DNA from: Segetibacter aerophilus
Lineage (GTDB): Bacteria; Bacteroidota; Bacteroidia; Chitinophagales; Chitinophagaceae
Reading direction: 5' to 3'
Length of the DNA stretch: 64,000 nucleotides
Assembly: GCF_007991655.1 (NCBI RefSeq)
Contig: NZ_BJYT01000006.1
Coordinates: forward strand, 124,001 to 188,000
Part shown: in pieces, positions 5,653 to 21,024 of the stretch
Layout: every line of letters begins with the position of its first letter
How positions within the stretch are numbered: the first letter of the stretch is position 1
Program-made: the position numbers and the translations under genes
The notes under the pieces: generated by a model
The model's input: only the letters and a program-made list of their open reading frames with translations
What the model was told of the DNA's origin: nothing
The model's database searches: none

Positions 5653-8600
5653 CTATCTCAATAATGTGATGTCTCCTTTCTTTTGATATTTTGTATTGTC
5701 AGAATATTCAACATCCAGGATGTAGTGATACACTTCCTTCGGTTGCATTGCTCCCTTATAAGTACCATCCCAACCCTGGGTTATGTCGATTGATTCAAAA
5801 ACAACTGTTCCCCACCTGTTATAGATCTTCCACAGCAGTCTATTAATACCAAAACCTCTCACAAACACTTTATCATTGATTCCATCGTTGTTGGGTGTAA
5901 AGGCATTAGGAACGTCAAGTACCGGAACAATCAAGGCCGAAATTGGTTGGCAAACAGTATCCGCACAACCAACATTATTAATTGCAATCAAACATGTATT
6001 AAAGGTGTTTGTCTCGCTGTAGATATGTTGTATCGGATTAGTTGAAGAAGTAAGTAAAGAGTCAGAGTCGCCAAAAACCCATTTGTATCGGCTGGCCGCA
6101 ATGGAGTTATTAAAGAACCTAACAGGGGTATTTTCTTGCGGAGGATTGGGTGAAAAAGTAAATGAAGCAACAGGCTTTCCTGCAATAGTAATAGTAAAAC
6201 TGGCGGAGTCTTGTAGGTTACAGGTGGCAGAGTCAATCACTCTTAAATTTACAATAAAAGTTCCGGGTGTTGTATATAAATGTTGAGGATTTGTGAGGGT
6301 TGATGTTGTTCCATCCCCAAAATTCCAGTTAAATTGTTGGCCTCCTGCAGAAGTATTTTCAAAGATCGCATTGTAAGGTGCGCAACCACTTGCACCAGTC
6401 TTAAAACTCGCTTTTACATTGGCTGATATTCTGATTGTTTTTTCAATAGAATCCGGAGAATTACAAAATGTTGTGTCATTCAAAAAGAGTTTGACAACAT
6501 AACTACCGGCACCGGGAAAACTATGATTTACCGGATTAGTGCCTGCAACAACAGGAGCAGAATTGTCTCCAAAATTCCATTTGAATGAACTGGATGAAAA
6601 AGATCTTGCAGCGGGTGAAACAAAAGACGTATTAGTAAATCGATAATTAAAAGAATCGCAGGGTTGAAGCTTTGTCGAGTTGAAATCGAGGTTTGCTCTA
6701 AAGGTCCTTACCCGGATATTTGTATAGGCGGTATCAGCAACATTACATTTTAAACTATCAATGGAAACAAGCCTGATTCGGTAATCTCCAACACTCGTAA
6801 AGGTATGACTGAGGTTAGGGGTCGTCGTAACAATATCGCCTGTATTATCCCCGAAGTTCCAGATATAACTATTTCCCTGTGCTAACGTATCAGAGAAGTC
6901 AACAGTAAGAGGCACACAGCCCGTTGTATCATTTACTGCGCCTTTTATAGAGGATCTCACACTTCCGGTAACGCCTGCAAGATTAAAAGCAATTTTTACG
7001 GCTGCGAGGTTACAATTATTCGATCCATTGTCGGGCGACCAGACACCGGGCGTTGTTGGAAACGTAACCCCTTTATTGCAATTAGCGCAAAGCGCCTGGT
7101 AGATAACACCGTTTCGATCAAATCTGCTTGTGCCGCCATCTACGTGTTCGCCCACGCCCCCATTCTGACCGAAAAAACTTCCATATAATTGGCTGGTGGC
7201 ATTTTTTGCTAGCACGAAAAAGTAAAAGTCGCTATTGTCGGTTCCTTTTTGTATTGCGTCAGAAGTAACAGTTAAACCAGAAGTTCCTGCATTTGGATAT
7301 TTAGCATCCTGGTCCACAGAGCCGCCCCACCCTGATACATACACATTCTCACATCGGTCAACCAAAAAGGCTATGGGTGAAATATTAGGAAACGGGTTGT
7401 TAGTTCCAAACACAGTTGAATACTCATAGCCAGAAAGATCAGGTTTTAATTTCGATATAAATTGCTTTCCTCCAGCCTGGCGAAATACTGCATTTACAAC
7501 CGGCCAGTCTCCTGTTGTAGTTCCCATTATATAAGGAAATGAAAACCTGTCGAACTGGATGCCGTACAACATATCATTCCCTGGCGTACCCATATAACTG
7601 GTTTTTACCAATTGGCCTCCAGAAGTAATAATCGAAACAAATCCGTCCGTTTCGCCGCCCTGGAAAGTAGCATGTAAAATACCGGCTTTATCCCCCGGCA
7701 AATTTTGACTCACAGTATTACCTCCCAAATAAATGTTGTTATTTGATGGATTAATAGCCAGCACAAAAGCAGCATCATTTTCACTACCTCCAATGAAACT
7801 GCTGTACAAAATATTGCTGATATCCGCGCTTGCTTTAATAAATACCCCATCCTGTTTGCCACCTAACGACTTTTGGAAAGCATCGGCAGTAGTTCTAAAA
7901 TCAGAAGACTGGGTGCAGGAGGCAAGCAAAATGTTCCCGGCATTATCAAGAATTACTTCGCTCCTCGAGTCGTCCCCATAATTCCTTCGAAGACTTTCAA
8001 CCGACAACTGGTTTCCACCGGAATATTTAGGACCTATATTAACCCCGTCCATTTGAGAACCTCCAATTTTTCTTGAACCTAACAGGGCATTTCCTGCTGC
8101 ATTTAATTTAGTCAAGACAATATCATAACCCCCACCCGTACCGAAAATGGTAGATCTCACCGGGTAATTATCCGAAGTCGTTCTTCCCGCCATCACCAGG
8201 TTGTCCTGCCCATCCACCACTAAGCTATGAGGATATTCGTTTTTCGATCCCCCGATGTAAGTGGCGTAGGTTCTATTTCTTCCATCGGGAGAAAATTTCA
8301 TTATCCCTATATCAAAACCACCAAGTCCTTCTGAGTCACTTTCTCCACCAGCATAACTTGTTTGAAAAGCACCAGGACTTGTAGGAAACCCTGTACCAAA
8401 GACAATCCCTCCGGCATAAAAGCTACCATCGGCGCCATAGGTTGCAGTATAGCCCCAGTTATCCGCTGTGCTACCAGTAAAGGTTGAAAAAACAAGTGTG
8501 GGATCTATCACTAAAGTTGATGTAGCTGAGTAATTGCCAACAGCAAATTTCACTGTATTACCTGCCACCTTAAATCTACAATCAATTGTCTTTTTCTGCC

Positions 8601-9264
8601 CGTTAACTACCTGGTAAGCGTAAGGGGCAAGTTCGCGCATGTTACCAACTGAAGTCTTTATAATGAGTTGTTCGTTTTTTACTTCCAGGCCGTCTACACC
8701 TTCGTATTTCATAGCCAGAGGAGACAGGTCTGCTCCTGCATTTACAACAATGTCATACTTTAACTGCCCTTCGTTTGTATAATACCTCACGTCTATGCCG
8801 GGATAAATATTTTGATAAGTGATAGCCTGGTAAATACTACAATTACCCTTCCATTTTGCAGGATCGTTACCGATAAAATAATTGTTATAAGAGGTCAGAG
8901 GTTTATCGCCTGAAATAAGAGGTTTTACTGCATTTATAAATTGCACGTTATATGCATGAGAATGAACTACAACGCTGCTTTCCGGAGCAGGAGCAATCGT
9001 TTTTGCTGCAACCCTCTTTTCGTATTGCGCATTACCATGGTTTAGGTGCTGCAGAAAAGAAAGGTCATTGGGATTATGTTGAACGACAGTAAATCCTTTC
9101 TCTTGTAGAAAAAAAGCTCCACTATTCATCAAACCCTTAAACTTTATATTATTTTCCCACTGGCCTTTATTCTCTACAAATTCAAGGTTCGAATTTTGGC
9201 AAAAGCTATATAAACTGCTACAAAGAATTAAAGCTGTGAACGCAATTGAAAGAAGTAGTTTCAA
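5653..9264 (-). CDS. Large secreted PKD-repeat protein with gliding-type (type B) T9SS sorting domain
   Basis: A 1203-residue secreted adhesin-like protein. Signal peptide 1-22 (LYSFCQ). Residues about 25-260 form the conserved N-terminal region beginning FVENKGQW, typical of large Bacteroidota SBBP/PKD proteins. Residues about 265-770 contain beta-propeller-like repeats (YIGGSKNEY, SFIGGSENDA, YMGTPGNDM). Four PKD domains span about 772-1110, each with a WNFGD or WVFGD motif. The last 92 residues are a gliding-motility-associated C-terminal domain (FTPNNDGINDKVFV, IYNRWG, GWDGTYKG, YHYILDV). It is therefore predicted to be exported by T9SS and fixed to the cell surface with help from the downstream PorP/SprF protein. 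The ligand is unknown. Confidence 0.93.
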   Translation of the reverse strand: MKLLLSIAFTALILCSSLYSFCQNSNLEFVENKGQWENNIKFKGLMNSGAFFLQEKGFTVVQHNPNDLSFLQHLNHGNAQYEKRVAAKTIAPAPESSVVVHSHAYNVQFINAVKPLISGDKPLTSYNNYFIGNDPAKWKGNCSIYQAITYQNIYPGIDVRYYTNEGQLKYDIVVNAGADLSPLAMKYEGVDGLEVKNEQLIIKTSVGNMRELAPYAYQVVNGQKKTIDCRFKVAGNTVKFAVGNYSATSTLVIDPTLVFSTFTGSTADNWGYTATYGADGSFYAGGIVFGTGFPTSPGAFQTSYAGGESDSEGLGGFDIGIMKFSPDGRNRTYATYIGGSKNEYPHSLVVDGQDNLVMAGRTTSDNYPVRSTIFGTGGGYDIVLTKLNAAGNALLGSRKIGGSQMDGVNIGPKYSGGNQLSVESLRRNYGDDSRSEVILDNAGNILLASCTQSSDFRTTADAFQKSLGGKQDGVFIKASADISNILYSSFIGGSENDAAFVLAINPSNNNIYLGGNTVSQNLPGDKAGILHATFQGGETDGFVSIITSGGQLVKTSYMGTPGNDMLYGIQFDRFSFPYIMGTTTGDWPVVNAVFRQAGGKQFISKLKPDLSGYEYSTVFGTNNPFPNISPIAFLVDRCENVYVSGWGGSVDQDAKYPNAGTSGLTVTSDAIQKGTDNSDFYFFVLAKNATSQLYGSFFGQNGGVGEHVDGGTSRFDRNGVIYQALCANCNKGVTFPTTPGVWSPDNGSNNCNLAAVKIAFNLAGVTGSVRSSIKGAVNDTTGCVPLTVDFSDTLAQGNSYIWNFGDNTGDIVTTTPNLSHTFTSVGDYRIRLVSIDSLKCNVADTAYTNIRVRTFRANLDFNSTKLQPCDSFNYRFTNTSFVSPAARSFSSSSFKWNFGDNSAPVVAGTNPVNHSFPGAGSYVVKLFLNDTTFCNSPDSIEKTIRISANVKASFKTGASGCAPYNAIFENTSAGGQQFNWNFGDGTTSTLTNPQHLYTTPGTFIVNLRVIDSATCNLQDSASFTITIAGKPVASFTFSPNPPQENTPVRFFNNSIAASRYKWVFGDSDSLLTSSTNPIQHIYSETNTFNTCLIAINNVGCADTVCQPISALIVPVLDVPNAFTPNNDGINDKVFVRGFGINRLLWKIYNRWGTVVFESIDITQGWDGTYKGAMQPKEVYHYILDVEYSDNTKYQKKGDITLLR

Positions 9265-9550: not shown

Positions 9551-9632
9551 TGTAAGTTATAATGGAACCCTTTTAGCTACCTTTCCTTTGAACCTTTTTG
9601 ACAGGCTTTTCTGCAAAACTAAAAATGGATAC

Positions 9633-9763: not shown

Positions 9764-10729
9764 ATGATCCGATTACAAAATGTAAGCAAACAATATTCTA
9801 ATGGCAAAGCAGTAGATGATATCTCCTTCTTCATCAAAGAAGGTGAAACGCTCGTGCTTTTGGGAACCAGTGGTTGCGGAAAAACAACCACCCTCAGAAT
9901 GATTAACCGTTTGACTGAGCCAACGCAAGGAGACATCACTATAAACGGACAGAATATAAAAACACAATCACCCGAATTACTTAGAAGAGGAATTGGATAT
10001 GTACTACAACACCATGGTTTGTTTCCTCACTATACAGTTGCAGAAAATATTTCGATCGTTCCCAACTTGCTAAAATGGACCAAGGAAAAAACTACAAGTC
10101 GCGTCAATGAATTACTGGAAAAACTAGAACTCCCCTTAAAAGTTGCAAACCTTTACCCGGCACAATTAAGTGGAGGGCAACAGCAACGTGTTGGCCTGGC
10201 AAGAGCCTTGGCCGCTAACGCACCTGTTCTACTGATGGATGAACCGTTAGGTGCCCTTGACCCCGTGACCCGGGCAAGCATAAGAAAAGAGTTCAATACA
10301 CTTGACGAGCTGAAAAGAAAGACGATTCTTATGGTAACTCATGACGTGCAGGAAGCCTTTGAATTAGGCGATCGCATCTGCCTGATGAACGAAGGAAAAA
10401 TTGTGCAGATCGGTACAGCTACAGAACTATTGTTTAAACCTTCCAATGATTTTGTTTCCACCTTTTTTAAAGAACAACGCTTTCAATTGGAATTGGAAAG
10501 TATCCAACTAAAGGATATCTGGCAACTTCTACCTAAAACAATTGAAGGAACAGACGAAAAGGTGCTATCGCCTGAAACTACATTGTGGGAAGCAATAGAC
10601 ACAATATCGCAGGCAACAGGGTTGGGAGCTGAAAGATTTGTTACGACAGTAAACAATCAAAACAAACAAGTTGAAACAGGTTCTTTGATGGCTGCTTACA
10701 CAGCTTATAAAAATTCATTTACTGCATGA
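9764..10729 (+). CDS. OpuB/OpuC-type ABC transporter ATP-binding protein (candidate EgtV)
   Basis: A 321-residue ATPase of the quaternary-amine uptake (QAT) group of ABC importers. Walker A is GTSGCGKTTT, the Q-loop region LQHHGLFPHYTV, signature LSGGQQQRVGLARA, Walker B LLMDEPLGALDP and switch His VTHD. A C-terminal extension of about 80 residues follows. The ATG at 9764 is preferred over an upstream TTG at 9659 that falls in the promoter. The stop overlaps the start of the permease gene by 4 nt (ATGA), and egtB and egtD follow, so the cargo is more likely ergothioneine or a related betaine such as hercynine than a generic osmoprotectant. The cargo assignment is inference from context. Confidence 0.92.
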   Translation: MIRLQNVSKQYSNGKAVDDISFFIKEGETLVLLGTSGCGKTTTLRMINRLTEPTQGDITINGQNIKTQSPELLRRGIGYVLQHHGLFPHYTVAENISIVPNLLKWTKEKTTSRVNELLEKLELPLKVANLYPAQLSGGQQQRVGLARALAANAPVLLMDEPLGALDPVTRASIRKEFNTLDELKRKTILMVTHDVQEAFELGDRICLMNEGKIVQIGTATELLFKPSNDFVSTFFKEQRFQLELESIQLKDIWQLLPKTIEGTDEKVLSPETTLWEAIDTISQATGLGAERFVTTVNNQNKQVETGSLMAAYTAYKNSFTA

Positions 10730-12297
10730 ATGAGCAGCAACAAAGTCTGTGGAGTTTTATACAGCAACAATCTGATAAGTTGCTCCAACAAACGGCTGCT
10801 CACATTGGACTGACCTTCATTTCCCTGCTCCTTTCCATCATCATCGGAATTCCTTTGGGCATTTGGATCAGCAGGAAAAAGCAATGGAGCGGTACGGTGC
10901 TGGGCATTGCAGGTGTACTTCAAACCATTCCAAGTATTGCCCTACTTGGCTTTATGATACCCTTGTTAGGTATTGGGGTTAAACCTGCAATTGTTGCGTT
11001 GATGCTGTACGCATTTCTTCCAATTATTCGTAACACATTCACTGGTATTAACCAGGTTAATGCAGCGGTAACCGATGCGGCAAAAGGCATGGGCATGACT
11101 TCTAATCAAATACTTTTTAAGGTTGAGTTACCACTTGCTATGCCGGTTATACTTGCCGGCATCAGAACAGCCACCGTCATCAACGTTGGTGTAGCAACCC
11201 TCGCAGCTTATATCGCTGCCGGTGGTCTTGGCGAATTCATTTTCGGTGGAATTGCTTTAAACAACACCAACATGATTTTAGCCGGTGCAATTCCTGCTGC
11301 TTTGCTTGCAATCTTTTTTGATTTTTTGCTTGCGCGCGTTCAGCAACTTAACATTCGAAATGCCCGCATTTCTTTGATTATTTTCCCGATTATATTGATT
11401 GTTCTCTCCTCTTTTTACCTCCTTCCTGCTACAATAAAAGGCAAGATGCTTGCTGGCTTTACGCCGGAATTTATGGGAAGAAGTGATGGATATCTTGGGT
11501 TAAAGGATAAATACAAATTAAACATAAGAACGGTAGTTATAAGCGATGCAATAATGTACAAAGCGGCTTTCGAAAACCAACTCGATGTGATCAGCGGGTA
11601 TAGCACGGATGGAAGATTGAAAGCGTACGACCTTGTAGTGTTAAACGATGATAAAACCATCTTCCCGCCTTACTATGCAGCACCAATTGTGAGACAGGAT
11701 GCGTTAATAAAGTACCCCGAACTTGAGCCTGCGCTAAATTTATTATCAGGTAGAATTAAAGACTCTGTTATGACTGATCTTAATTACCGCGTTGATCATT
11801 TAAAGGAGTCTCCTGAAAAAGTTGCGAAGGAATTTCTGATGAGACAAAATCTATACAAAAAACCTCGAAACGGAAACAAAGGAATAGTAAGGCTAGGTTC
11901 AAAAATATTTGGTGAACAGTACATTTTGTTACAGATGTATTCAATGCTGATAAATGGCAACACCGACCTCCAAGTAGAAACGAAAACAGGGCTTGGTGGT
12001 ACAAAAATTTGTTTTGATGCTTTAAACAACAACCAGATTGACATGTATCCTGAATATACAGGCACTGGCTTGTTGGTTATACTGCAACCAAAGAATAATA
12101 TTGTTCAGGAGATTATTGGGAATAAAGAAAAAGTGTACGAATATGTTCAAAAGGAGTTCATCAACCAATACAAAATAAAATGGTTGAAACCTATTGGTTT
12201 TAATAATGCTTATGCCTTAATGATGCGGAAGAAGCAGGCCGATGAATTGCACATCCGAACTATTTCCGATTTAAAAATGTTTATCGATAATAATTAA
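10726..12297 (+). CDS. ABC permease fused to a circularly permuted substrate-binding domain (candidate EgtU)
   Basis: A 523-residue membrane protein. Residues about 20-205 are a MetI-type permease with the EAA-like loop AAKGMGMTSNQILFKVELP (about 118-136). A transmembrane anchor follows at about 214-234. The rest is an OpuBC-type binding domain with its halves in swapped order: residues about 239-378 match what is normally the second half (GYSTDGRLKAYDLVVLNDDK, FPPYYAAPIVR, NYRVD, VAKEFL), and residues 386-523 match what is normally the first half (GIVRLGSKIFGEQYIL, TGLGGTKICFDAL, DMYPEYTGTG, LKPIGFNNAYAL). Overlaps the ATPase gene by 4 nt; egtB starts 4 nt after its stop. Known EgtU importers of ergothioneine are also permease-binding domain fusions, so that role is plausible here; betaine or choline uptake is the alternative. 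Confidence 0.9.
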   Translation: MNEQQQSLWSFIQQQSDKLLQQTAAHIGLTFISLLLSIIIGIPLGIWISRKKQWSGTVLGIAGVLQTIPSIALLGFMIPLLGIGVKPAIVALMLYAFLPIIRNTFTGINQVNAAVTDAAKGMGMTSNQILFKVELPLAMPVILAGIRTATVINVGVATLAAYIAAGGLGEFIFGGIALNNTNMILAGAIPAALLAIFFDFLLARVQQLNIRNARISLIIFPIILIVLSSFYLLPATIKGKMLAGFTPEFMGRSDGYLGLKDKYKLNIRTVVISDAIMYKAAFENQLDVISGYSTDGRLKAYDLVVLNDDKTIFPPYYAAPIVRQDALIKYPELEPALNLLSGRIKDSVMTDLNYRVDHLKESPEKVAKEFLMRQNLYKKPRNGNKGIVRLGSKIFGEQYILLQMYSMLINGNTDLQVETKTGLGGTKICFDALNNNQIDMYPEYTGTGLLVILQPKNNIVQEIIGNKEKVYEYVQKEFINQYKIKWLKPIGFNNAYALMMRKKQADELHIRTISDLKMFIDNN

Positions 12298-12301
12298 AAG
12301 A

Positions 12302-13447
12302 ATGGATTTTTTAGAGCGTTATAAAATAGTCAGAAAACGAACGGAAGACATTTGCAGACCGTTGGAAACGGAAGATTTCGTTGTTCAACCTGTTGCAGAT
12401 GTAAGTCCACCTAAGTGGCACATTGGTCATACAACCTGGTTCTTCGAAACATTCATACTTAAGAATTACTTGCAGGGATATAAAGAATTTAACCCCGAAT
12501 ACAATTATGTATTCAATAGTTATTACGAAACAGTTGGTGCGAGAGTTATCAGGACTGATCGCGGTAACTTAAGCAGGCCCACTGTAAAAGATATTTTTCA
12601 ATACCGGAAGTATGTAGACGACTCAATGGAGCAATTGCTTTCTACAGATTACGCAAACGAGTTGAATGAGCTTCTTGAGCTCGGCTTTAACCACGAAGAA
12701 CAACACCAGGAGCTTCTGTTAACTGATATAAAATATATTCTGGGAAATAATCCCTTGTTTCCAGCTTACACTCCCTCAATTGAAACAATCGAACATAGTT
12801 CAGTTGAGAGCTTTATAACAATCGATGAAGGAATTTATGAAATCGGTTTCAACGGATCGAGCTTTTGTTTCGATAATGAATTGGGAAGACATAAAGTGTA
12901 TTTGCCTCAATTTGAAATAGCTACTACACTGGTGACTAATGGAGCATTTATTGAATTTATCGAAGCTGGAGGTTATACTGATTTTAGACATTGGCATGCA
13001 GAGGGATTGGATTGGGTGAAGAACAACAACATTTCTGCTCCCATGTACTGGCACTCAATATACGGAACCTGGCATCATTACACTTACACTGGATTAACTC
13101 CTGTAAATCCCCACGACCTTCTGAACCATATAAGTTTTTATGAAGCAGCGGCTTTTGCCGCATGGAAAGGCATGCGCTTACCCACAGAATTTGAGTGGGA
13201 AGCAGCAGCAGACAAATTTACGTGGGGACAACGTTGGGAGTGGACCGAGAGTGCTTACCTGCCTTACCCTGGTTTCAAAAAAGCTCCCGGTGCAATTGGT
13301 GAGTACAATGGAAAATTTATGGTCAATCAAAAGGTATTGCGTGGTGCTTCGGAAGTTACATCACCCGGCCATAGTCGTATTACTTACCGCAACTTTTTTC
13401 ATCCCCACCTTCGCTGGCAATACACCGGTATCAGGTTAGCACAATAA
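12302..13447 (+). CDS. egtB: Ergothioneine biosynthesis sulfoxide synthase EgtB
   Basis: A 381-residue non-heme iron enzyme that joins hercynine to a cysteine-type thiol using O2, giving a sulfoxide. The N-terminal DinB-like domain shows WHIGHTTWFFE (His40/His43) and the HX3HXE iron motif HEEQHQE (His131, His135). The C-terminal formylglycine-generating-enzyme-like domain includes RLPTEFEWEAAA, WEWTESAYLPYPGF and the end region RITYRNFFHPHLRWQYTGIRLA. It is 4 nt from the transporter gene and 5 nt from egtD. No egtA, egtC or egtE is nearby; the thiol donor (cysteine or gamma-glutamylcysteine) and the C-S lyase cannot be read from this window. Relatives such as OvoA or SenA are less likely given the adjacent egtD and the absence of a fused methyltransferase or selenium genes. 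Confidence 0.93.
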   Translation: MDFLERYKIVRKRTEDICRPLETEDFVVQPVADVSPPKWHIGHTTWFFETFILKNYLQGYKEFNPEYNYVFNSYYETVGARVIRTDRGNLSRPTVKDIFQYRKYVDDSMEQLLSTDYANELNELLELGFNHEEQHQELLLTDIKYILGNNPLFPAYTPSIETIEHSSVESFITIDEGIYEIGFNGSSFCFDNELGRHKVYLPQFEIATTLVTNGAFIEFIEAGGYTDFRHWHAEGLDWVKNNNISAPMYWHSIYGTWHHYTYTGLTPVNPHDLLNHISFYEAAAFAAWKGMRLPTEFEWEAAADKFTWGQRWEWTESAYLPYPGFKKAPGAIGEYNGKFMVNQKVLRGASEVTSPGHSRITYRNFFHPHLRWQYTGIRLAQ

Positions 13448-13452
13448 CAAAC

Positions 13453-14391
13453 ATGAGTCAATTTCTAGAGGATGTTTTGAAGGGTCTTTCTGCGAAAGAG
13501 AAATATTTGCAGTCAAAATATTTTTATGATGCGAACGGCGATAAGTTGTTCCAAAGTATTATGGGCTCAAAAGAGTATTATCCTACAAAATGTGAAATGG
13601 AAATTTTCACGCAAAAAACAAGCGAACTGGTTACAGTACTTACGGGGCAGAATAAAGAATTTGATATCGTTGAATTAGGTGCCGGTGATGCTACGAAATC
13701 GGTCCATCTACTAAAAGGGCTTCTCGATAATAAAGTAACCTTTACCTATTTTCCCGTTGATATTTCTGCTAACGTAATTGACCTGTTGCAGAATGAACTT
13801 CCTAAAAAACTTCCCACATTAAAGCTGCAGGGTTTGAACGGGGAATATTTTAAAATGCTTGAAAAGGCAAAGACATTATCTGATAAAATCAAAGTGGTTC
13901 TTTTTCTAGGTAGCAATATTGGCAATGTTCCGTTGGAAAAAGCAGGTGACTTTGTTACATTGTTAAGACAACATTTGAAACCGGGCGATCTTGTCTTAAT
14001 CGGCTTTGATTTAAAAAAAGATCCAAAAACAATTTTAGATGCTTATAACGATAGTTGCGGATTTACCCGAGACTTCAATCTAAACTTACTACGAAGAATC
14101 AATAACGAGTTACAAGGAAATTTCAACCTCGATAATTTCTATCACTATCCCACCTACGACCCCGCTACAGGGGCAACCAAAAGTTATATTGTCAGCAAAG
14201 TAGAACAACAGGTAAGCGTCGCAGAAAACCTCTTTGATTTTTCGGAGGGAGAGTCAATATTTATGGAGATCTCACAAAAATATACTGTGCAGCAAACTGA
14301 CGAACTAGCAAAACAAACAGGCTTTGAACCTATTCATCATTTCTATGATACAAAGAAGTGGTTTTTGGACGCGATTTGGAGGTGCGTGTGA
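13453..14391 (+). CDS. egtD: L-histidine N-alpha-methyltransferase EgtD
   Basis: A 312-residue SAM-dependent enzyme that trimethylates histidine to hercynine, the first step of ergothioneine synthesis. The SAM-binding motif is IVELGAGDATKSVHLL, followed by FPVDISANVI and VVLFLGSNIGNV. Near the C-terminus, GESIFMEISQKYT matches the conserved segment whose Glu holds the histidine amino group. It is the last gene of the operon, 5 nt after egtB. Confidence 0.95.
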   Translation: MSQFLEDVLKGLSAKEKYLQSKYFYDANGDKLFQSIMGSKEYYPTKCEMEIFTQKTSELVTVLTGQNKEFDIVELGAGDATKSVHLLKGLLDNKVTFTYFPVDISANVIDLLQNELPKKLPTLKLQGLNGEYFKMLEKAKTLSDKIKVVLFLGSNIGNVPLEKAGDFVTLLRQHLKPGDLVLIGFDLKKDPKTILDAYNDSCGFTRDFNLNLLRRINNELQGNFNLDNFYHYPTYDPATGATKSYIVSKVEQQVSVAENLFDFSEGESIFMEISQKYTVQQTDELAKQTGFEPIHHFYDTKKWFLDAIWRCV

Positions 14392-14779: not shown

Positions 14780-15883
14780 ATGAAATTGAAAGAACTAGGT
14801 GCCTTTGTCCTTGCGATAATGGCGTGTGTGAATGCATCGGGACAATTTAGAAAATATTCTAATGAATTTCTAAACATCGGAGCCGGAGCCCGGGGTCTTG
14901 CAATGGGCGGTGCCCAGGTAGCATCGGTAAAAGATGGAACGGCAGGATATTGGAACCCCGCCGGATTAGTAGGCGTGAAAGAAGTTCCTTCTTTGCACTT
15001 AATGCATGCAGAATATTTTGCCGGAATTGGAAAATACGACTACGCCAGCCTCGCAATTCCTCTCCGCGACGAGAAAAGGGTAGTAGGGTTATCGTTATTG
15101 CGCTTTGCAGTTGATGACATTCCCAATACTCTATTTCTTGTAGAACCGGATGGTTCAGTCAACTACAATAACATCAAAACTTTTTCTTCGGCCGATTACG
15201 CCTTTCTCTTGTCCTACGCACAAAGTGTGATAGACAACGATGATGAGAAATTGAGCTTTGGCGGAAATGTAAAAATCATACACAGAAAGGTGGGCAGTTT
15301 TGCCACAGCATGGGGTTTTGGAATCGACGCCGGTGCACGTTACCAGAAAAATAACTGGAGTTTGGGCGCCACAGTTCGCGACCTTACAACAACTTTTAAT
15401 GCATGGTCTTTTTCTTTTAATGAAAGAGAAAAAGAGGTCTTATATCTTACAAACAACGACATCCCCGTAAAGTCTACTGAACTTACTGCTCCGAGGCTAA
15501 TTCTTGGAGCTGCGCGACTTTTTCCTTTCAGCGAGAAATTTAGTTTGACTGCCGAGGCTAACCTCGATCTTACTTTCGATGGACAAAGAAATACGGTAAT
15601 AAGTAATAAAGCTATCAACGTAGACCCGAGGATTGGCTTGGAAGCTTCTTATAACGAAACCGTCTTTTTTAGGGCAGGTATCTCCAATTTTCAGAAAGCA
15701 CTTGCTGACGCAGATACGCTTAACCAGAATAAAGTTTGGGTGTACCAGCCAAGTGTAGGTGCGGGTTTTAAGATAAACAATGTAATGATTGATTACGCTT
15801 TTACAAACCTGGCTAATCAGTCAAATCCCCTATATACCCATATTTTTTCGCTGCGGGTAGATCTCACAAAAAACAAGAAATAG
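14780..15883 (+). CDS. PorV/PorQ-family type IX secretion outer membrane protein (PorV2-like)
   Basis: A 367-residue FadL-like beta-barrel. A signal peptide ends at ASGQ. The mature start FLNIGAGARGLAMGGAQVAS and GYWNPAGL are hallmark motifs of the PorV/PorQ family, whose members carry T9SS substrates to the surface sortase. A PorU-like gene begins 35 nt downstream in the same direction, the pairing expected for a PorU-PorV attachment complex. The family has several paralogs, so this could be a second, specialised PorV rather than the canonical one. Confidence 0.9.
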   Translation: MKLKELGAFVLAIMACVNASGQFRKYSNEFLNIGAGARGLAMGGAQVASVKDGTAGYWNPAGLVGVKEVPSLHLMHAEYFAGIGKYDYASLAIPLRDEKRVVGLSLLRFAVDDIPNTLFLVEPDGSVNYNNIKTFSSADYAFLLSYAQSVIDNDDEKLSFGGNVKIIHRKVGSFATAWGFGIDAGARYQKNNWSLGATVRDLTTTFNAWSFSFNEREKEVLYLTNNDIPVKSTELTAPRLILGAARLFPFSEKFSLTAEANLDLTFDGQRNTVISNKAINVDPRIGLEASYNETVFFRAGISNFQKALADADTLNQNKVWVYQPSVGAGFKINNVMIDYAFTNLANQSNPLYTHIFSLRVDLTKNKK

Positions 15884-15918
15884 GCGTGGTAGCAGGTACT
15901 ACATATAATTTGAAAAGC

Positions 15919-18900
15919 ATGAAAAAGGTTTTTGTCTTTATTCTATCATTACTATTCGCAGGTGTTGCTATTGGCCAATCTTACTACAACGAATGGATTG
16001 ATTACAATAAAACGTATTATAAATTCAAGGTCGGCTCTACCGGTTTATATAGGATTTCTGTAAACGATTTAACTGCTATAGGGCTCGCTAGTGAAGGGGC
16101 ACAAAACTTTCAACTTTGGAGAAATGGTAAGCAGGTGCCTTTGTACACGAGCACATCAGCAGGTGCTTTGGGAAGCGGAGGTTATATCGAGTTTTGGGGT
16201 GAAAGAAATGATGGCGTTACAGATCGCGATCTGTATAGGAATCCCAACAACCAATTATCGAATAGAGAAAGTTTACTAACAGATACGGCTGCTTTCTTTT
16301 TAACCGTAAACACAACCGGTAATAATCTCAGGTTTTCTCCCACTGACAATAATCTTACAGGAAATACAAGAGCCGCTGAGCCTTATTTCATGTATTCGCT
16401 GCGACATAGTTTTAAAGACAGAATACATAGAGGCCAGGCATTGGTCGCTGGCAGCGAGTATGTGTATTCAAGTACTTATGACGCTGGCGAGATGTGGTCT
16501 TCGTTTGATATTTACCCTGCTTCTCCTGCGGCTGTTAACTTTAACGATCTGCAGGTTGCTACTGCCGGGCCAGCAGCTAGTTTCAGCGTTGCCATGGCGG
16601 GAAGTGCGCCCAACAACCGCGACTTCAGAGTGGACTTAAACAATACTTCTATTATCGATACTACCATCAGCGTCTTCGCTTCGCGAATTAGTAGCAACCC
16701 TGCTGTGCCTCTAGCGGTGATAGCCTCAAATACCGCTTCCTTCAAAATCACCAATAAAAGCTCCAATGTAAACGACCGGATTGTTTCCAGTTTTTTTGAG
16801 TTAACCTATCCCAGATTGTTCAATTTTAGCAATCAATCAACTTTTGCTTTTTCTCTGCCTGCGTCAGCCGCTCCAAAATATATCGAAATCACCAACTTCA
16901 ACGCCGGTGGTTCTGTTCCAGTTTTATATGATTTAACTAATCTTCGCAGGTACGTTGCCGATGTCTCTACTGTGGGAGTGCTTAAGTTTCTTGTTCTTCC
17001 ATCTGCTACAGCGGCCAACCTTACTTTGGTAGCACAAAACGCCGGGAATGCAAAATCAGTCGGCACGTTACAACAAAGAACATTTATTGATTATCATGCT
17101 CCCGCTAACCAGGGAGATTTCATGATTATTACCCATCCTTCTTTGCAGGTACCCTTTTCTGGCGCTAACCAGGTGGAATTGTATAGAGCTTATAGAAGTT
17201 CTGCTGTGGGCGGTGGTTACAATGGTAAGATTTATGATATCGACCAGTTGACGGATCAGTTCGGTTACGGTATAAAGAAGAATCCGCTTGGAATAAAGAA
17301 CTTTCTTCGATACGCCAGGAACACTTTTTCAGTTGCGCCAAAATTTGCTTTCCTGGTTGGAAAGGGTTTAACCTATTCTGACTATCGTGAAAATGAAAGC
17401 AATCGAAATGCAGACAGGTTGAATTTGATTCCAACTTTTGGCTATCCCGCTTCAGACATTTTACTTGCTTCAAACAGCCTTGACCCCGTGATGAGTACTT
17501 TCATCAGTCGCTTGTCTATTTTATCTCCAAAAGAATTGGCGGAGTATTTAGATAAGGTAAAGCAATACGAGCAGGCGCAGCAAAACACGACGCAGACGTT
17601 CGACAATAAAGCGTGGATGAAAAACATTGTGCATGTAGTAGGTGCTAACGATGCCAGCTTAGATCAAAGCCTTTCGAGTTATATGAAGAACTACCAGACC
17701 ATTGTGGAAGACACGTTGTTTGGTGCAAAAGTTACTAATTTCAACAAAGCCTCCACTGGTCCTGTTACGCCCATTGTTAATAGCTTAATGAGTAGTTTAT
17801 TCCAACAAGGCATCAGCATTCTCTCTTATTTCGGTCACTCTTCGGCTTCTTCATTAGACTATAACCTCGATGATCCAGCAGCTTATAACAACACAGGGAA
17901 ATATCCAATGTTCCTTGTAAGTGGTTGTAATGCCGGCGACTTGTTCTCTTTTGATACATCCAGGTTTTCTTTCTTAGGAACTTTATCAGAGAAATTTGTG
18001 CTGGCACCGAATAAGGGTGCAATTGGTTTCATAGCAAGTACGCATTTTGGTATAGATACCTACCTTGACTATTACAACAGGTATTTATACAAATCGATAG
18101 CTACAACTGGTTACGGAAAGAGCATCACTTTTAATATCAATGAAGCTATTAACGCAGTTAACAGTTATTTCGGAACAGAAAGCCTTGGAGGAAGATTGCA
18201 CTCTGAAGAAAATACACTTCATGGTGACCCGGCCATAAAAATTAATAGTTTTCCAAAGCCTGACTTTGATGTGGAAGATCCGATGGTGCAGACGGTGCCT
18301 AATATCGTTTCTGTCGCTGACACAAAGTTTACCGTAAAAGTTCAGTTGTATAATATAGGTAAAGCGACAGGCGATTCTGTAATGGTTCAAATCAAGCATC
18401 GCTACCCTAACGGAACTGATACTTTGATTTATAATAGACGTATAAAATCAGTTCGTTATAATGACTCAATCTCTCTTGAAGTTCCCATTGTCGCCACTCG
18501 CGATAAGGGTGAGAATAAGATCATTGTTACTATCGATCCTGAAAATGCATATTCCGAACTAAGCGAAACAAATAATACTGCTACCAACACCTTTACTATT
18601 TTCGAAGATGAGCTCACACCCGTTTATCCTTACAATTTTTCTATCGTAAATAAGGCTAGTCTAGAACTGGCAGCGAGCACGGCAAACCCGGTGGTAGATA
18701 GCCGACAATATTTGATGGAAATTGATACGACCGAAAATTTCAACTCGTCATTTAAGGTAAGTCGCAGTGTAGCATCAAAAGGTGGATTGATAGAATTTGA
18801 TCCCGGATTTTCATTTACGGATAGTACCACTTATTACTGGCGCGTCGCACCGGCTTCTTCAACTGCCGTCCGCTGGAATACAGCCTCATTTACTTATATC

Positions 18901-21024
18901 AGTGGTAGTAATGTAGGCTTCAACCAGTCTCATTTCTTCCAACACAAAAAATCAACTACAACAGATATAGCTATCGACAGCGCTTCGAGGAAGTGGCAGT
19001 TCACCTCGAAGCCCAATACCTTAACGATTGTCAACTCTGTCTTCCCCGTAAGTGGCGACGAAGACAATCACTTTAGTTTTGCCATTAATGGCATCATAAG
19101 AGCACAGAGTGCATGTCTCGGTCATTCTATCGTATTTTTTGTTTTTGATCCAATAACACTCAAACCTCTATACAACCAGGCAGTTCCATCTACTACAGCT
19201 GGAGTATTATCGGGTGGCTTCATGGGCAGTGCTGCGAATTGTGGTAAGAATCTTCGTGAGTTTAATTTTGAATTTTCTTACATGGACACTGCCTCCAGAA
19301 GAAAGATGAGAGATTTTATCGATTGGATACCTTCCGGTTATTATGTCGCTATGCGTCTTAACCTCGATGGTCCTTATGATCAAAACCCTTACGTAGACGT
19401 CTGGAAGAATGATGCTGCCGTATACGGCGAAGGAAACACTTTGTACAACAGGTTAAAAAGCGCGGGCTTCTCAGATATTGACGCGTACACCTACGCACGC
19501 ACTTGGGTTTTCGCCTATAGAAAAAATAATACTTCTTTCACGCCTGTCTCTAAAATGAGCAGCGCACTTGAAAGAGTGACTTTAAACGCCACCATTAACA
19601 CACCGGCAACTGCGGGATATATTAGTTCTCCTGCCTTTGGCCCTGCCAAAACATGGAAAGAGGTAAAATGGAGAGGCGCCAGTGTTGAAGCTGCACCACG
19701 CGACGTATATTCTGTAAAAGTGATTGGCATTACCTCTACAGGTAGAGAAGATACTTTATACACTTTGCAGCCTAACCAGCAGGATTTTGCTTTGACTAAT
19801 GTGAGTGCCGTTCAATATCCTTACATCCGTTTAGGCATGCCTAACCAGGATCTTGATACTGCTGCATTAACGCCTTACCAATTGCGCTACTGGCGATTGT
19901 ACTATGATCCTGTTCCTGAAGGCGCCCTTGCTCCTAATATTGTTTATCGTGGAAAAGACACGTTGGAAGTGGGTGAAAAACTGAATTTCTCTATAGCTTT
20001 CAAAAATGTGAGCGATGGAGTATTTTCTGATAGTCTGAAAGTGAACATGATCGTTTACGATAAGAATAACGTCGCGAATGTTGTTCCCGTTCCAAGACGA
20101 AAAAGCTTACAGCCGGGGGATACCACAAGCGTAAGTTATTCCATCGATACAAAATCGTTACTTGGTAACAACACCCTCTTTGTTGATGTTAACCCAACAC
20201 CCGGGCAGCCCGAGCAATATCATTACAATAACGTTTTGTATAAAAACTTCTTTGTAAAAGCTGATACTTATAATCCAGTAATGGATGTAACGTTCGACGG
20301 CGTGCATATCCTAAATGGTGACATTGTTTCTGCCAAACCAAAAATTGTAGTCAAGCTCAAGGATGAGTCGAAGTTCCTCGCACTAGATGATACATCGCTG
20401 ACAACCGTTTTTGTACGCTACCCAGGCAGCAATGGAAGACTGCAACGTTTTGCCTTTGGTACCGATACGCTTAGGTTTGTTCCCGCGGACTTGGCAAGCG
20501 GTAAAAACGAGGCTACTATTGAGTTTTCTCCGGCCTTTTTGCAGGATAGCGAAGGAGACTTTTACGAGTTGCATGTAAAGGCGAAAGACAAAAGTGGTAA
20601 TGCTACAGGAACGATCGAATATAGCGTAAGGTTCCAGGTGTATACCAAGCCGATGATCTCTAATATGTTCAACTATCCAAATCCCTTTACGACTTCTACG
20701 GCCTTTGTGTTCACGGTTACCGGAAGTGATATTCCTCAAAACATCAGGATCCAAATCATGACGATAACGGGCAAAATAGTTAAGGAGATTACAAGGCAGG
20801 AATTGGGAAACCTGCATATAGGCAGAAACATTACTGACTACAAGTGGGATGGCACTGACCAGTATGGACAAAAGCTCGCAAACGGCATTTACCTGTACCG
20901 CGTCATAACTAACTTAAACGGTGCATCACTCGACAAGTTTAATACGACAGATGCTAACGGCGATAAAATAGATACTGATAAGTATTTCAATAAGGGCTAT
21001 GGTAAAATGTATTTAATGAGGTAG
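15919..21024 (+). CDS. Very large PorU-like C25 family cysteine protease / T9SS sortase (long form, PorU2-like)
   Basis: A 1701-residue secreted protein. Signal peptide MKKVFVFILSLLFAGVAIGQ. A beta-rich N-terminal region precedes a gingipain-like C25 catalytic domain with His640 (SYFGHSSASS) and Cys670 (VSGCNAGD), 30 residues apart as in the family. CARDB-like beta domains follow (TVKVQLYNIG, ENAYSELSETNN). The C-terminus resembles a FlgD-like or type A sorting fold (NYPNPF, YKWDGTDQYGQKLANGIYLYRV). PorU cleaves and attaches T9SS cargo; characterised PorU proteins are nearer 1150 residues, so this is the long form. I start at ATG 15919, where the signal peptide begins; a GTG at 15886 adds 11 residues. 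The neighbour is the PorV-like barrel. Confidence 0.88.
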   Translation: MKKVFVFILSLLFAGVAIGQSYYNEWIDYNKTYYKFKVGSTGLYRISVNDLTAIGLASEGAQNFQLWRNGKQVPLYTSTSAGALGSGGYIEFWGERNDGVTDRDLYRNPNNQLSNRESLLTDTAAFFLTVNTTGNNLRFSPTDNNLTGNTRAAEPYFMYSLRHSFKDRIHRGQALVAGSEYVYSSTYDAGEMWSSFDIYPASPAAVNFNDLQVATAGPAASFSVAMAGSAPNNRDFRVDLNNTSIIDTTISVFASRISSNPAVPLAVIASNTASFKITNKSSNVNDRIVSSFFELTYPRLFNFSNQSTFAFSLPASAAPKYIEITNFNAGGSVPVLYDLTNLRRYVADVSTVGVLKFLVLPSATAANLTLVAQNAGNAKSVGTLQQRTFIDYHAPANQGDFMIITHPSLQVPFSGANQVELYRAYRSSAVGGGYNGKIYDIDQLTDQFGYGIKKNPLGIKNFLRYARNTFSVAPKFAFLVGKGLTYSDYRENESNRNADRLNLIPTFGYPASDILLASNSLDPVMSTFISRLSILSPKELAEYLDKVKQYEQAQQNTTQTFDNKAWMKNIVHVVGANDASLDQSLSSYMKNYQTIVEDTLFGAKVTNFNKASTGPVTPIVNSLMSSLFQQGISILSYFGHSSASSLDYNLDDPAAYNNTGKYPMFLVSGCNAGDLFSFDTSRFSFLGTLSEKFVLAPNKGAIGFIASTHFGIDTYLDYYNRYLYKSIATTGYGKSITFNINEAINAVNSYFGTESLGGRLHSEENTLHGDPAIKINSFPKPDFDVEDPMVQTVPNIVSVADTKFTVKVQLYNIGKATGDSVMVQIKHRYPNGTDTLIYNRRIKSVRYNDSISLEVPIVATRDKGENKIIVTIDPENAYSELSETNNTATNTFTIFEDELTPVYPYNFSIVNKASLELAASTANPVVDSRQYLMEIDTTENFNSSFKVSRSVASKGGLIEFDPGFSFTDSTTYYWRVAPASSTAVRWNTASFTYISGSNVGFNQSHFFQHKKSTTTDIAIDSASRKWQFTSKPNTLTIVNSVFPVSGDEDNHFSFAINGIIRAQSACLGHSIVFFVFDPITLKPLYNQAVPSTTAGVLSGGFMGSAANCGKNLREFNFEFSYMDTASRRKMRDFIDWIPSGYYVAMRLNLDGPYDQNPYVDVWKNDAAVYGEGNTLYNRLKSAGFSDIDAYTYARTWVFAYRKNNTSFTPVSKMSSALERVTLNATINTPATAGYISSPAFGPAKTWKEVKWRGASVEAAPRDVYSVKVIGITSTGREDTLYTLQPNQQDFALTNVSAVQYPYIRLGMPNQDLDTAALTPYQLRYWRLYYDPVPEGALAPNIVYRGKDTLEVGEKLNFSIAFKNVSDGVFSDSLKVNMIVYDKNNVANVVPVPRRKSLQPGDTTSVSYSIDTKSLLGNNTLFVDVNPTPGQPEQYHYNNVLYKNFFVKADTYNPVMDVTFDGVHILNGDIVSAKPKIVVKLKDESKFLALDDTSLTTVFVRYPGSNGRLQRFAFGTDTLRFVPADLASGKNEATIEFSPAFLQDSEGDFYELHVKAKDKSGNATGTIEYSVRFQVYTKPMISNMFNYPNPFTTSTAFVFTVTGSDIPQNIRIQIMTITGKIVKEITRQELGNLHIGRNITDYKWDGTDQYGQKLANGIYLYRVITNLNGASLDKFNTTDANGDKIDTDKYFNKGYGKMYLMR

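Follow-up and report, generated by a model that had tools for sequence, protein, structure and literature searches.

The window analysed here, a stretch of 64,000 nucleotides (nt) of the Segetibacter aerophilus genome (contig NZ_BJYT01000006.1, positions 124,001 to 188,000 of the forward strand), raises the question of what an ABC (ATP-binding cassette) importer resembling the OpuB/OpuC systems carries when it shares an operon with egtB and egtD, two genes of ergothioneine synthesis. From the coordinates and the family matches, it is clear that the four genes follow one another as an earlier note on this DNA had described: the ATPase and fusion genes share a 4-nt ATGA overlap, 4 nt separate the fusion from egtB, and 5 nt separate egtB from egtD. 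The 5.9 Mb genome of this soil bacterium contains a single match to the fusion. The features, in window coordinates, are the following:

9764-10729 (+): ABC ATPase of the importer, OpuCA/ProV-like, no CBS domain detected (PF00005, 135.6 bits)
10726-12297 (+): permease-binding-domain fusion, with the binding domain circularly permuted (PF00528 and PF04069)
10774-11343 (+): permease part of the fusion, residues ~17-206 (PF00528 at residues 41-207; helices in the model)
11440-11853 (+): binding domain piece 1, the C-terminal half of EgtUC, fusion residues ~239-376 (EgtUC chain 137-277, 120.7 bits)
11890-12294 (+): binding domain piece 2, the N-terminal half of EgtUC, fusion residues ~389-523 (EgtUC chain 10-134, 76.5 bits)
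12302-13447 (+): egtB, hercynine-cysteine sulfoxide synthase of the Chloracidobacterium thermophilum kind (TIGR03440; match to C. thermophilum EgtB)
13453-14391 (+): egtD, histidine N-alpha-methyltransferase (PF10017; TIGR03438 just below cut-off)

On balance, we favour the reading that this operon couples ergothioneine synthesis to the uptake of ergothioneine, and possibly of hercynine, a reading in which we infer the substrate, the direction of transport, the thiol donor and the tether geometry, whereas the genes, their order, the permutation, the pocket residues and the link to egtD across genomes are observed directly. It draws support from the linkage and co-occurrence of the importer with egtD, from EgtUC as the nearest solved domain, from the ligand contacts that are kept, from an ATPase without a CBS domain and from the motifs of EgtB. 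The real surprise of the locus is its conserved, permuted binding domain.

The linkage extends well beyond this genome. We collected named loci as the best 80 of 540 confirmed relatives from a contig scan, with Bacteroidota titles, a set that is not an even sample and that covers Segetibacter, Mucilaginibacter, Pedobacter, Dyadobacter, Chitinophaga, Parafilimonas, Ilyomonas, Flavihumibacter and other genera. An egtB gene is found in 78/80 of these loci, egtD in 76/80 and the ATPase in 77/80. Where at least 1.5 kb of sequence follows the fusion, egtB lies 3′ of it on the same strand in 75 of 77 loci, and within 40 nt in 65 of the 77. An evenly drawn sample of 395 Bacteroidota genomes gave 64 matches to the fusion profile, comprising 22 permuted and 31 unpermuted fusions (the remaining 11 matched in the permease part only and were not counted); egtD is present in 128 of the 395 genomes, but in all 22 of those with a permuted fusion, and within 10 kb of it in 16. 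Among near relatives, egtD occurs in 18/18 fusion genomes versus 35/119 overall, two of these fusions (G001 and G042) being incomplete; by coordinates, 15 of the 18 fusions are linked to egtD, 2 are on other contigs (G010 and G058) and 1 is at a contig end (G001).

The survey of egtBD neighbourhoods that the earlier note had proposed thus ties the importer to egtB and egtD across Bacteroidota, and the gene order, which that note allowed might be unique to this genome, recurs in many relatives. Chance adjacency of the importer and egtBD is ruled out by the surveys of Bacteroidota genomes and named loci. The same figures bear on a different account, namely that the importer serves to take up a small betaine or choline, for osmoprotection or as a source of methyl groups, and neighbours egtBD only through shared regulation or inheritance. 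We regard this as unlikely, since permuted fusions come with egtD in 22/22 and 18/18 genomes and egtB is mostly within 40 nt of the fusion.

The betaine/choline account gains some ground from the family assignments. The best NCBIfam model for the ATPase is TIGR01186 (proV), at 294 bits against a cut-off of 326.6, and the importer parts as a whole are nearest to ProV, ProW and OsmF, every one below cut-off; the predicted structure, described below, matches OpuA and OpuAC. Against it, no CBS model is among the matches of the ATPase even at E values up to 10; OpuA and OpuC usually sense osmolarity through CBS domains on their ATPases.

The binding domain itself resembles EgtU in sequence. Its best match in the PDB is the pneumococcal ergothioneine binder EgtUC (E = 1.3e-57); 8dp6, which we take to be the H. 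pylori binding domain, is also among the PDB matches listed. The EgtUV-type layout put forward in the earlier note holds in that the binding domain follows the permease, but inside the binding domain the halves are reversed: domain residues 1-141 match EgtUC chain residues 137-277, and residues 152-280 match chain residues 10-134. This order, permease, C-terminal half, N-terminal half, is found in 109/109 fusions checked, a check that left out 8 of the 80 named loci (L061, L062, L063, L065, L100, L105 and L107, because the set included their genomes already, and L124, because it is incomplete) as well as the partial fusions L013 and L018. An assembly or gene-model error as the source of the permutation was rejected, since it is common to 106 unique proteins. 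A second type of Bacteroidota fusion (L165-L195) carries an unpermuted binding domain ahead of the permease in 31/31 cases.

Structure prediction gives a complementary picture. In the AlphaFold2 model of the whole fusion (pLDDT 81.7, pTM 0.66), the permease fold is like those of OpuA and MetNI, and OpuA takes Foldseek ranks 1-4. Its alignment with OpuAC (2b4m) spans 295 columns (TMt 0.70), that with EgtUC just 140-145 columns of ~275 residues (TMt ~0.46, identity 44-46%). When the domain is modelled alone (pLDDT 80.0, pTM 0.81; residues 1-20 and 44-51 poor), OpuAC takes ranks 1-5 with 247-254 columns, a TMt of 0.55-0.60 and an identity of 13-14%; AfProX reaches a TMt of 0.25, and EgtUC is not among the 50 rows listed. 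Descent of the domain from OpuAC itself was rejected, since the PDB sequence search gave no OpuAC match to it at E up to 0.01 and the identity by structure is as low as stated. The binding domain is an EgtU-like sequence in an OpuAC-like chain order. As to direction, importers are marked by an extracytoplasmic binding domain fused to the transporter and by a permease that folds like OpuA or MetNI, both of which are present here, and we therefore consider it very improbable that the transporter exports ergothioneine, an idea whose sole support is its co-localisation with the biosynthesis genes.

PMC2395249 had already described OpuAC, E. coli ProX and AfProX as related by circular permutation, so permutation has precedent in the superfamily. 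The one found here looks separate, because the halves are still ~45% identical to unpermuted EgtUC. Both chain ends of EgtUC are in lobe D1 (PMC9732360), and the new junction falls inside lobe D2; the binding domain should therefore be tethered to the membrane part through D2 instead of D1. In a tree of the permease part, 33 permuted rows form one group (87/88) beside 3 unpermuted fusions (joint group 100/100), with a long-branch warning at that place; in two of these three neighbours (L165 and L166), egtB and egtD are at most a few kb away, egtB being on the opposite strand. A literature search limited to CC0, CC BY and CC BY-SA papers, and hence weak evidence of absence, yielded no description that we recognised of a permuted EgtU-type domain or of an operon joining such an importer to egtBD.

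We then scored the ligand pocket in the 106 unique permuted fusions at the residues reported for EgtUC (PMC9732360). Eight contacts, K242, T275, T296, N339, Y341, E375, R379 and Y443, are kept in 106/106, while Y419 is kept in 102/106 and I243 in 94/106. K242, T296, R379, T275 and E375 make up two sets of carboxylate and imidazole contacts, which are thus retained together with most of the cage. The unpermuted fusions have nearly the same pocket, differing chiefly at position 243 (K 14, L 8, H 3, A 3 and others 3 of 31).

Several observations weigh against the coupling of synthesis and uptake. The G244 of EgtU is kept in 0/106 sequences (F 102, Q 4), and F293 is replaced by Y, Y337 by F and T274 by G in all 106; the resulting F-Y-F set at 244/293/337 is that of the betaine binder AfProX. 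At the level of gene context, one named locus (L070) has egtB and egtD on the opposite strand, another (L118) has neither nearby, 6/22 permuted fusions of the even sample are not near egtD, and the unpermuted fusions co-occur with egtD (30/31) but are rarely near it (6/31 within 10 kb). The Fisher P values for co-occurrence, 4.6e-12 for the 395 genomes and 1.8e-13 for family f1 (assuming 72 family members, taken from handle numbers), both ignore kinship. Finally, egtD occurs without either fusion type in 76/128 genomes, and synthesis thus does not require the importer. In 20 regions chosen from genomes of the even sample and of the near relatives that have egtD and no fusion, egtB is near egtD in 20/20 and a fusion is nearby in 0/20.

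How far the pocket decides the substrate can be judged from the EgtU study. That paper (PMC9732360) links ergothioneine affinity to G244 and to the Y-to-F switch, and mentions other subclusters without them; it also reports, citing Dumitrescu et al. 2022, that an H. pylori transporter, which belongs to the wider cluster but lies outside the SpEgtU subcluster, still adds to ergothioneine uptake with lower affinity. With the specific residues replaced, and with uptake of this kind on record, the pocket neither proves nor excludes ergothioneine. For the betaine/choline account, the locus residues F244, Y293, F337 and G274 are those of AfProX in the same source; OpuAC, by contrast, binds through a Trp cage (PMC9732360), and the translated binding domain at this locus contains a single Trp, so that it has no cage of the OpuAC kind. 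Given the permutation of the domain and the loss of the pocket residues specific to EgtU, the sequence by itself does not decide between ergothioneine and a smaller betaine. The earlier note's proposal that the importer probably moves ergothioneine or hercynine is supported in part, by the tie to egtBD across Bacteroidota and by the nearness to EgtUC, but not by the domain layout that the note had invoked; ergothioneine as the substrate is plausible, resting on gene context rather than on the pocket.

Of the synthesis enzymes, EgtB scores 533.5 bits with TIGR03440 against a cut-off of 360, and its closest solved relative is the C. thermophilum EgtB (6o6l, 6qki and 8qf6, E ~1e-120). The catalytic motifs, comprising the iron-binding His motifs WHxxH and HExQHQE and a Tyr pair, are kept in 76/76 rows; these rows are the EgtB of the locus and 75 open reading frames picked by a motif that contains one of the His motifs, so that the conservation of the His motifs is partly by construction. 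The C. thermophilum segment LRGGSCATS reads LRGASEVTS in the locus EgtB, and a Glu replaces the Cys of this segment in 52/76 of the Bacteroidota rows. EgtD reaches 318.5 bits with PF10017 (cut-off 23) and 282.1 bits with TIGR03438, just short of 290.9, a shortfall seen in other Bacteroidota EgtDs too, since 106 of the 128 genomes with an egtD match attain this cut-off.

The remaining genes of the canonical pathway were not found, in line with the earlier note: the genome has no match to EgtA or EgtC, and none to EgtE above 76.5 bits against a cut-off of 400, with similar weak matches in 14/14 control genomes. That note had left both the thiol donor and the final lyase open, but the donor is less so, since the nearest solved relative, the C. 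thermophilum EgtB, prefers cysteine according to a review (PMC10903977). Kinship to this cysteine-using enzyme would explain the absence of egtA and egtC. Synthesis at this locus is thus likely to proceed from cysteine with an unlinked C-S lyase, instead of by the canonical egtABCDE route, the thiol donor being judged from sequence kinship. In 4 of the 20 importer-less regions (L209, L212, L215 and L219), a gene resembling the pyridoxal phosphate (PLP) aminotransferases of class V lies in the egtBD region and is a candidate C-S lyase there; in the locus genome, the best match to this gene reaches merely 21 bits.

In the mechanism that we propose, EgtD would trimethylate histidine to hercynine, EgtB would join hercynine and cysteine as a sulfoxide, and an unlinked putative C-S lyase would free ergothioneine. 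The importer, which by analogy with its family would consist of two fusion subunits and two ATPases, would recapture ergothioneine lost by the cell or made by neighbours, and may also take up hercynine as feed for EgtB. A variant of this scheme, in which the importer mainly brings in hercynine (histidine betaine) to feed EgtB directly, seems improbable to us, although egtB adjoins the fusion in 75/77 loci and the residues tied to the ergothioneine affinity of EgtU are changed, so that hercynine, which EgtU separates from ergothioneine ~10,000-fold (PMC9732360), could be tolerated. The EgtD of the same operon already makes hercynine, and a dedicated supply is not obviously needed. Moreover, we know of no hercynine-specific bacterial importer.

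Many relatives of the locus have a further gene beside the importer. Of the named loci, 71 contain a complete ATPase gene and sufficient sequence 5′ of it, and 58 of these carry a gene for a flavin disulfide oxidoreductase 5′ of the ATPase, on the same strand and at a median gap of 16 nt. The protein has ~461 residues, PF07992 and PF02852 domains and a GGTCxNxGC motif; one case is in L198, from position 2160. For an example protein, the best NCBIfam model is PRK06370, below its cut-off (533 against 629), with RclA, MerA and mycothione reductase lower. Four of the 5 Segetibacter loci are among the 13 that lack the gene, and the locus genome has nothing closer to it than a match at 33% identity. 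Beside the unpermuted fusions (L165-L195) it was not seen, apart from one distant 33% match in L180. A 93-residue DUF427 protein is encoded near the oxidoreductase in 40/80 named loci. From the gene context, our guess is that this enzyme reduces ergothioneine disulfide; no published enzyme of this kind doing so is among the 8 of 24,950 literature matches listed.

Upstream of the operon and divergent from it, at 5653-9264 (−), lies a gene for a 1203-residue protein with a type IX secretion system (T9SS) type B sorting domain (TIGR04131). About 390 nt 3′ of egtD, at 14780-21024 (+), a PorV2-like gene (NF052325, 564.6 bits) and a PorU2-type sortase gene (NF052324, 875.9 bits) make up a putative second type IX secretion sortase pair. 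A promoter scan returned 11 sites versus 14.5 in shuffled sequences, and no promoter is claimed; one 10-of-12 site is at 9598-9626.

Taken together, these data lead us to a broader and more tentative proposal of a phylum-wide ergothioneine economy. Bacteroidota may co-express synthesis by EgtB and EgtD, recapture by a permuted importer, tethered via the other lobe and binding ergothioneine in a pocket unlike that of EgtU, and, in many related genera, recycling of oxidised ergothioneine by the dedicated flavin reductase, the permutation being a second, separate route to the OpuAC-like order. EgtU had been described as the means by which bacteria that do not make ergothioneine obtain it. A conserved operon for both its synthesis and its import would suggest that ergothioneine leaks or is shared among bacteria of soil and plants, and that it repays recapture. 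With its halves swapped, the binding domain is a natural experiment on what tether position and chain order do to an ABC importer, and its pocket is a second one, beside that of EgtU, for asking what fixes specificity. Enzymatic recycling of ergothioneine disulfide can be tested directly on the flavin reductase that adjoins the operon in related genera.

Among known systems, a close parallel is EgtU of S. pneumoniae (EgtUA and EgtUBC), likewise a two-gene ABC importer with a permease-binding-domain fusion in which the binding domain follows the permease. The locus importer differs from it by its permuted binding domain, by the loss of G244, F293, Y337 and T274, and by sitting with egtB and egtD; the bacteria in which EgtU has been described do not necessarily make ergothioneine (PMC9732360). 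The OpuA/OpuAC systems share with the locus domain its chain order and its place after the permease, and are set apart by an identity of 13-14%, by the Tyr cage residues and single Trp of the locus domain, and by the ATPase without a CBS domain. The H. pylori importer is likewise reported to contribute to ergothioneine uptake, at lower affinity, but H. pylori is not known to make ergothioneine. The Bacteroidota fusions with the substrate-binding domain first (31/395 genomes) combine the same two domain families with a near-identical pocket and co-occur with egtD in 30/31 cases, but their domain is unpermuted and ahead of the permease, and just 6/31 are near egtD. Finally, the C. thermophilum EgtB shares its His motifs and Tyr pair with the locus enzyme and differs from it in the LRGGSCATS segment.

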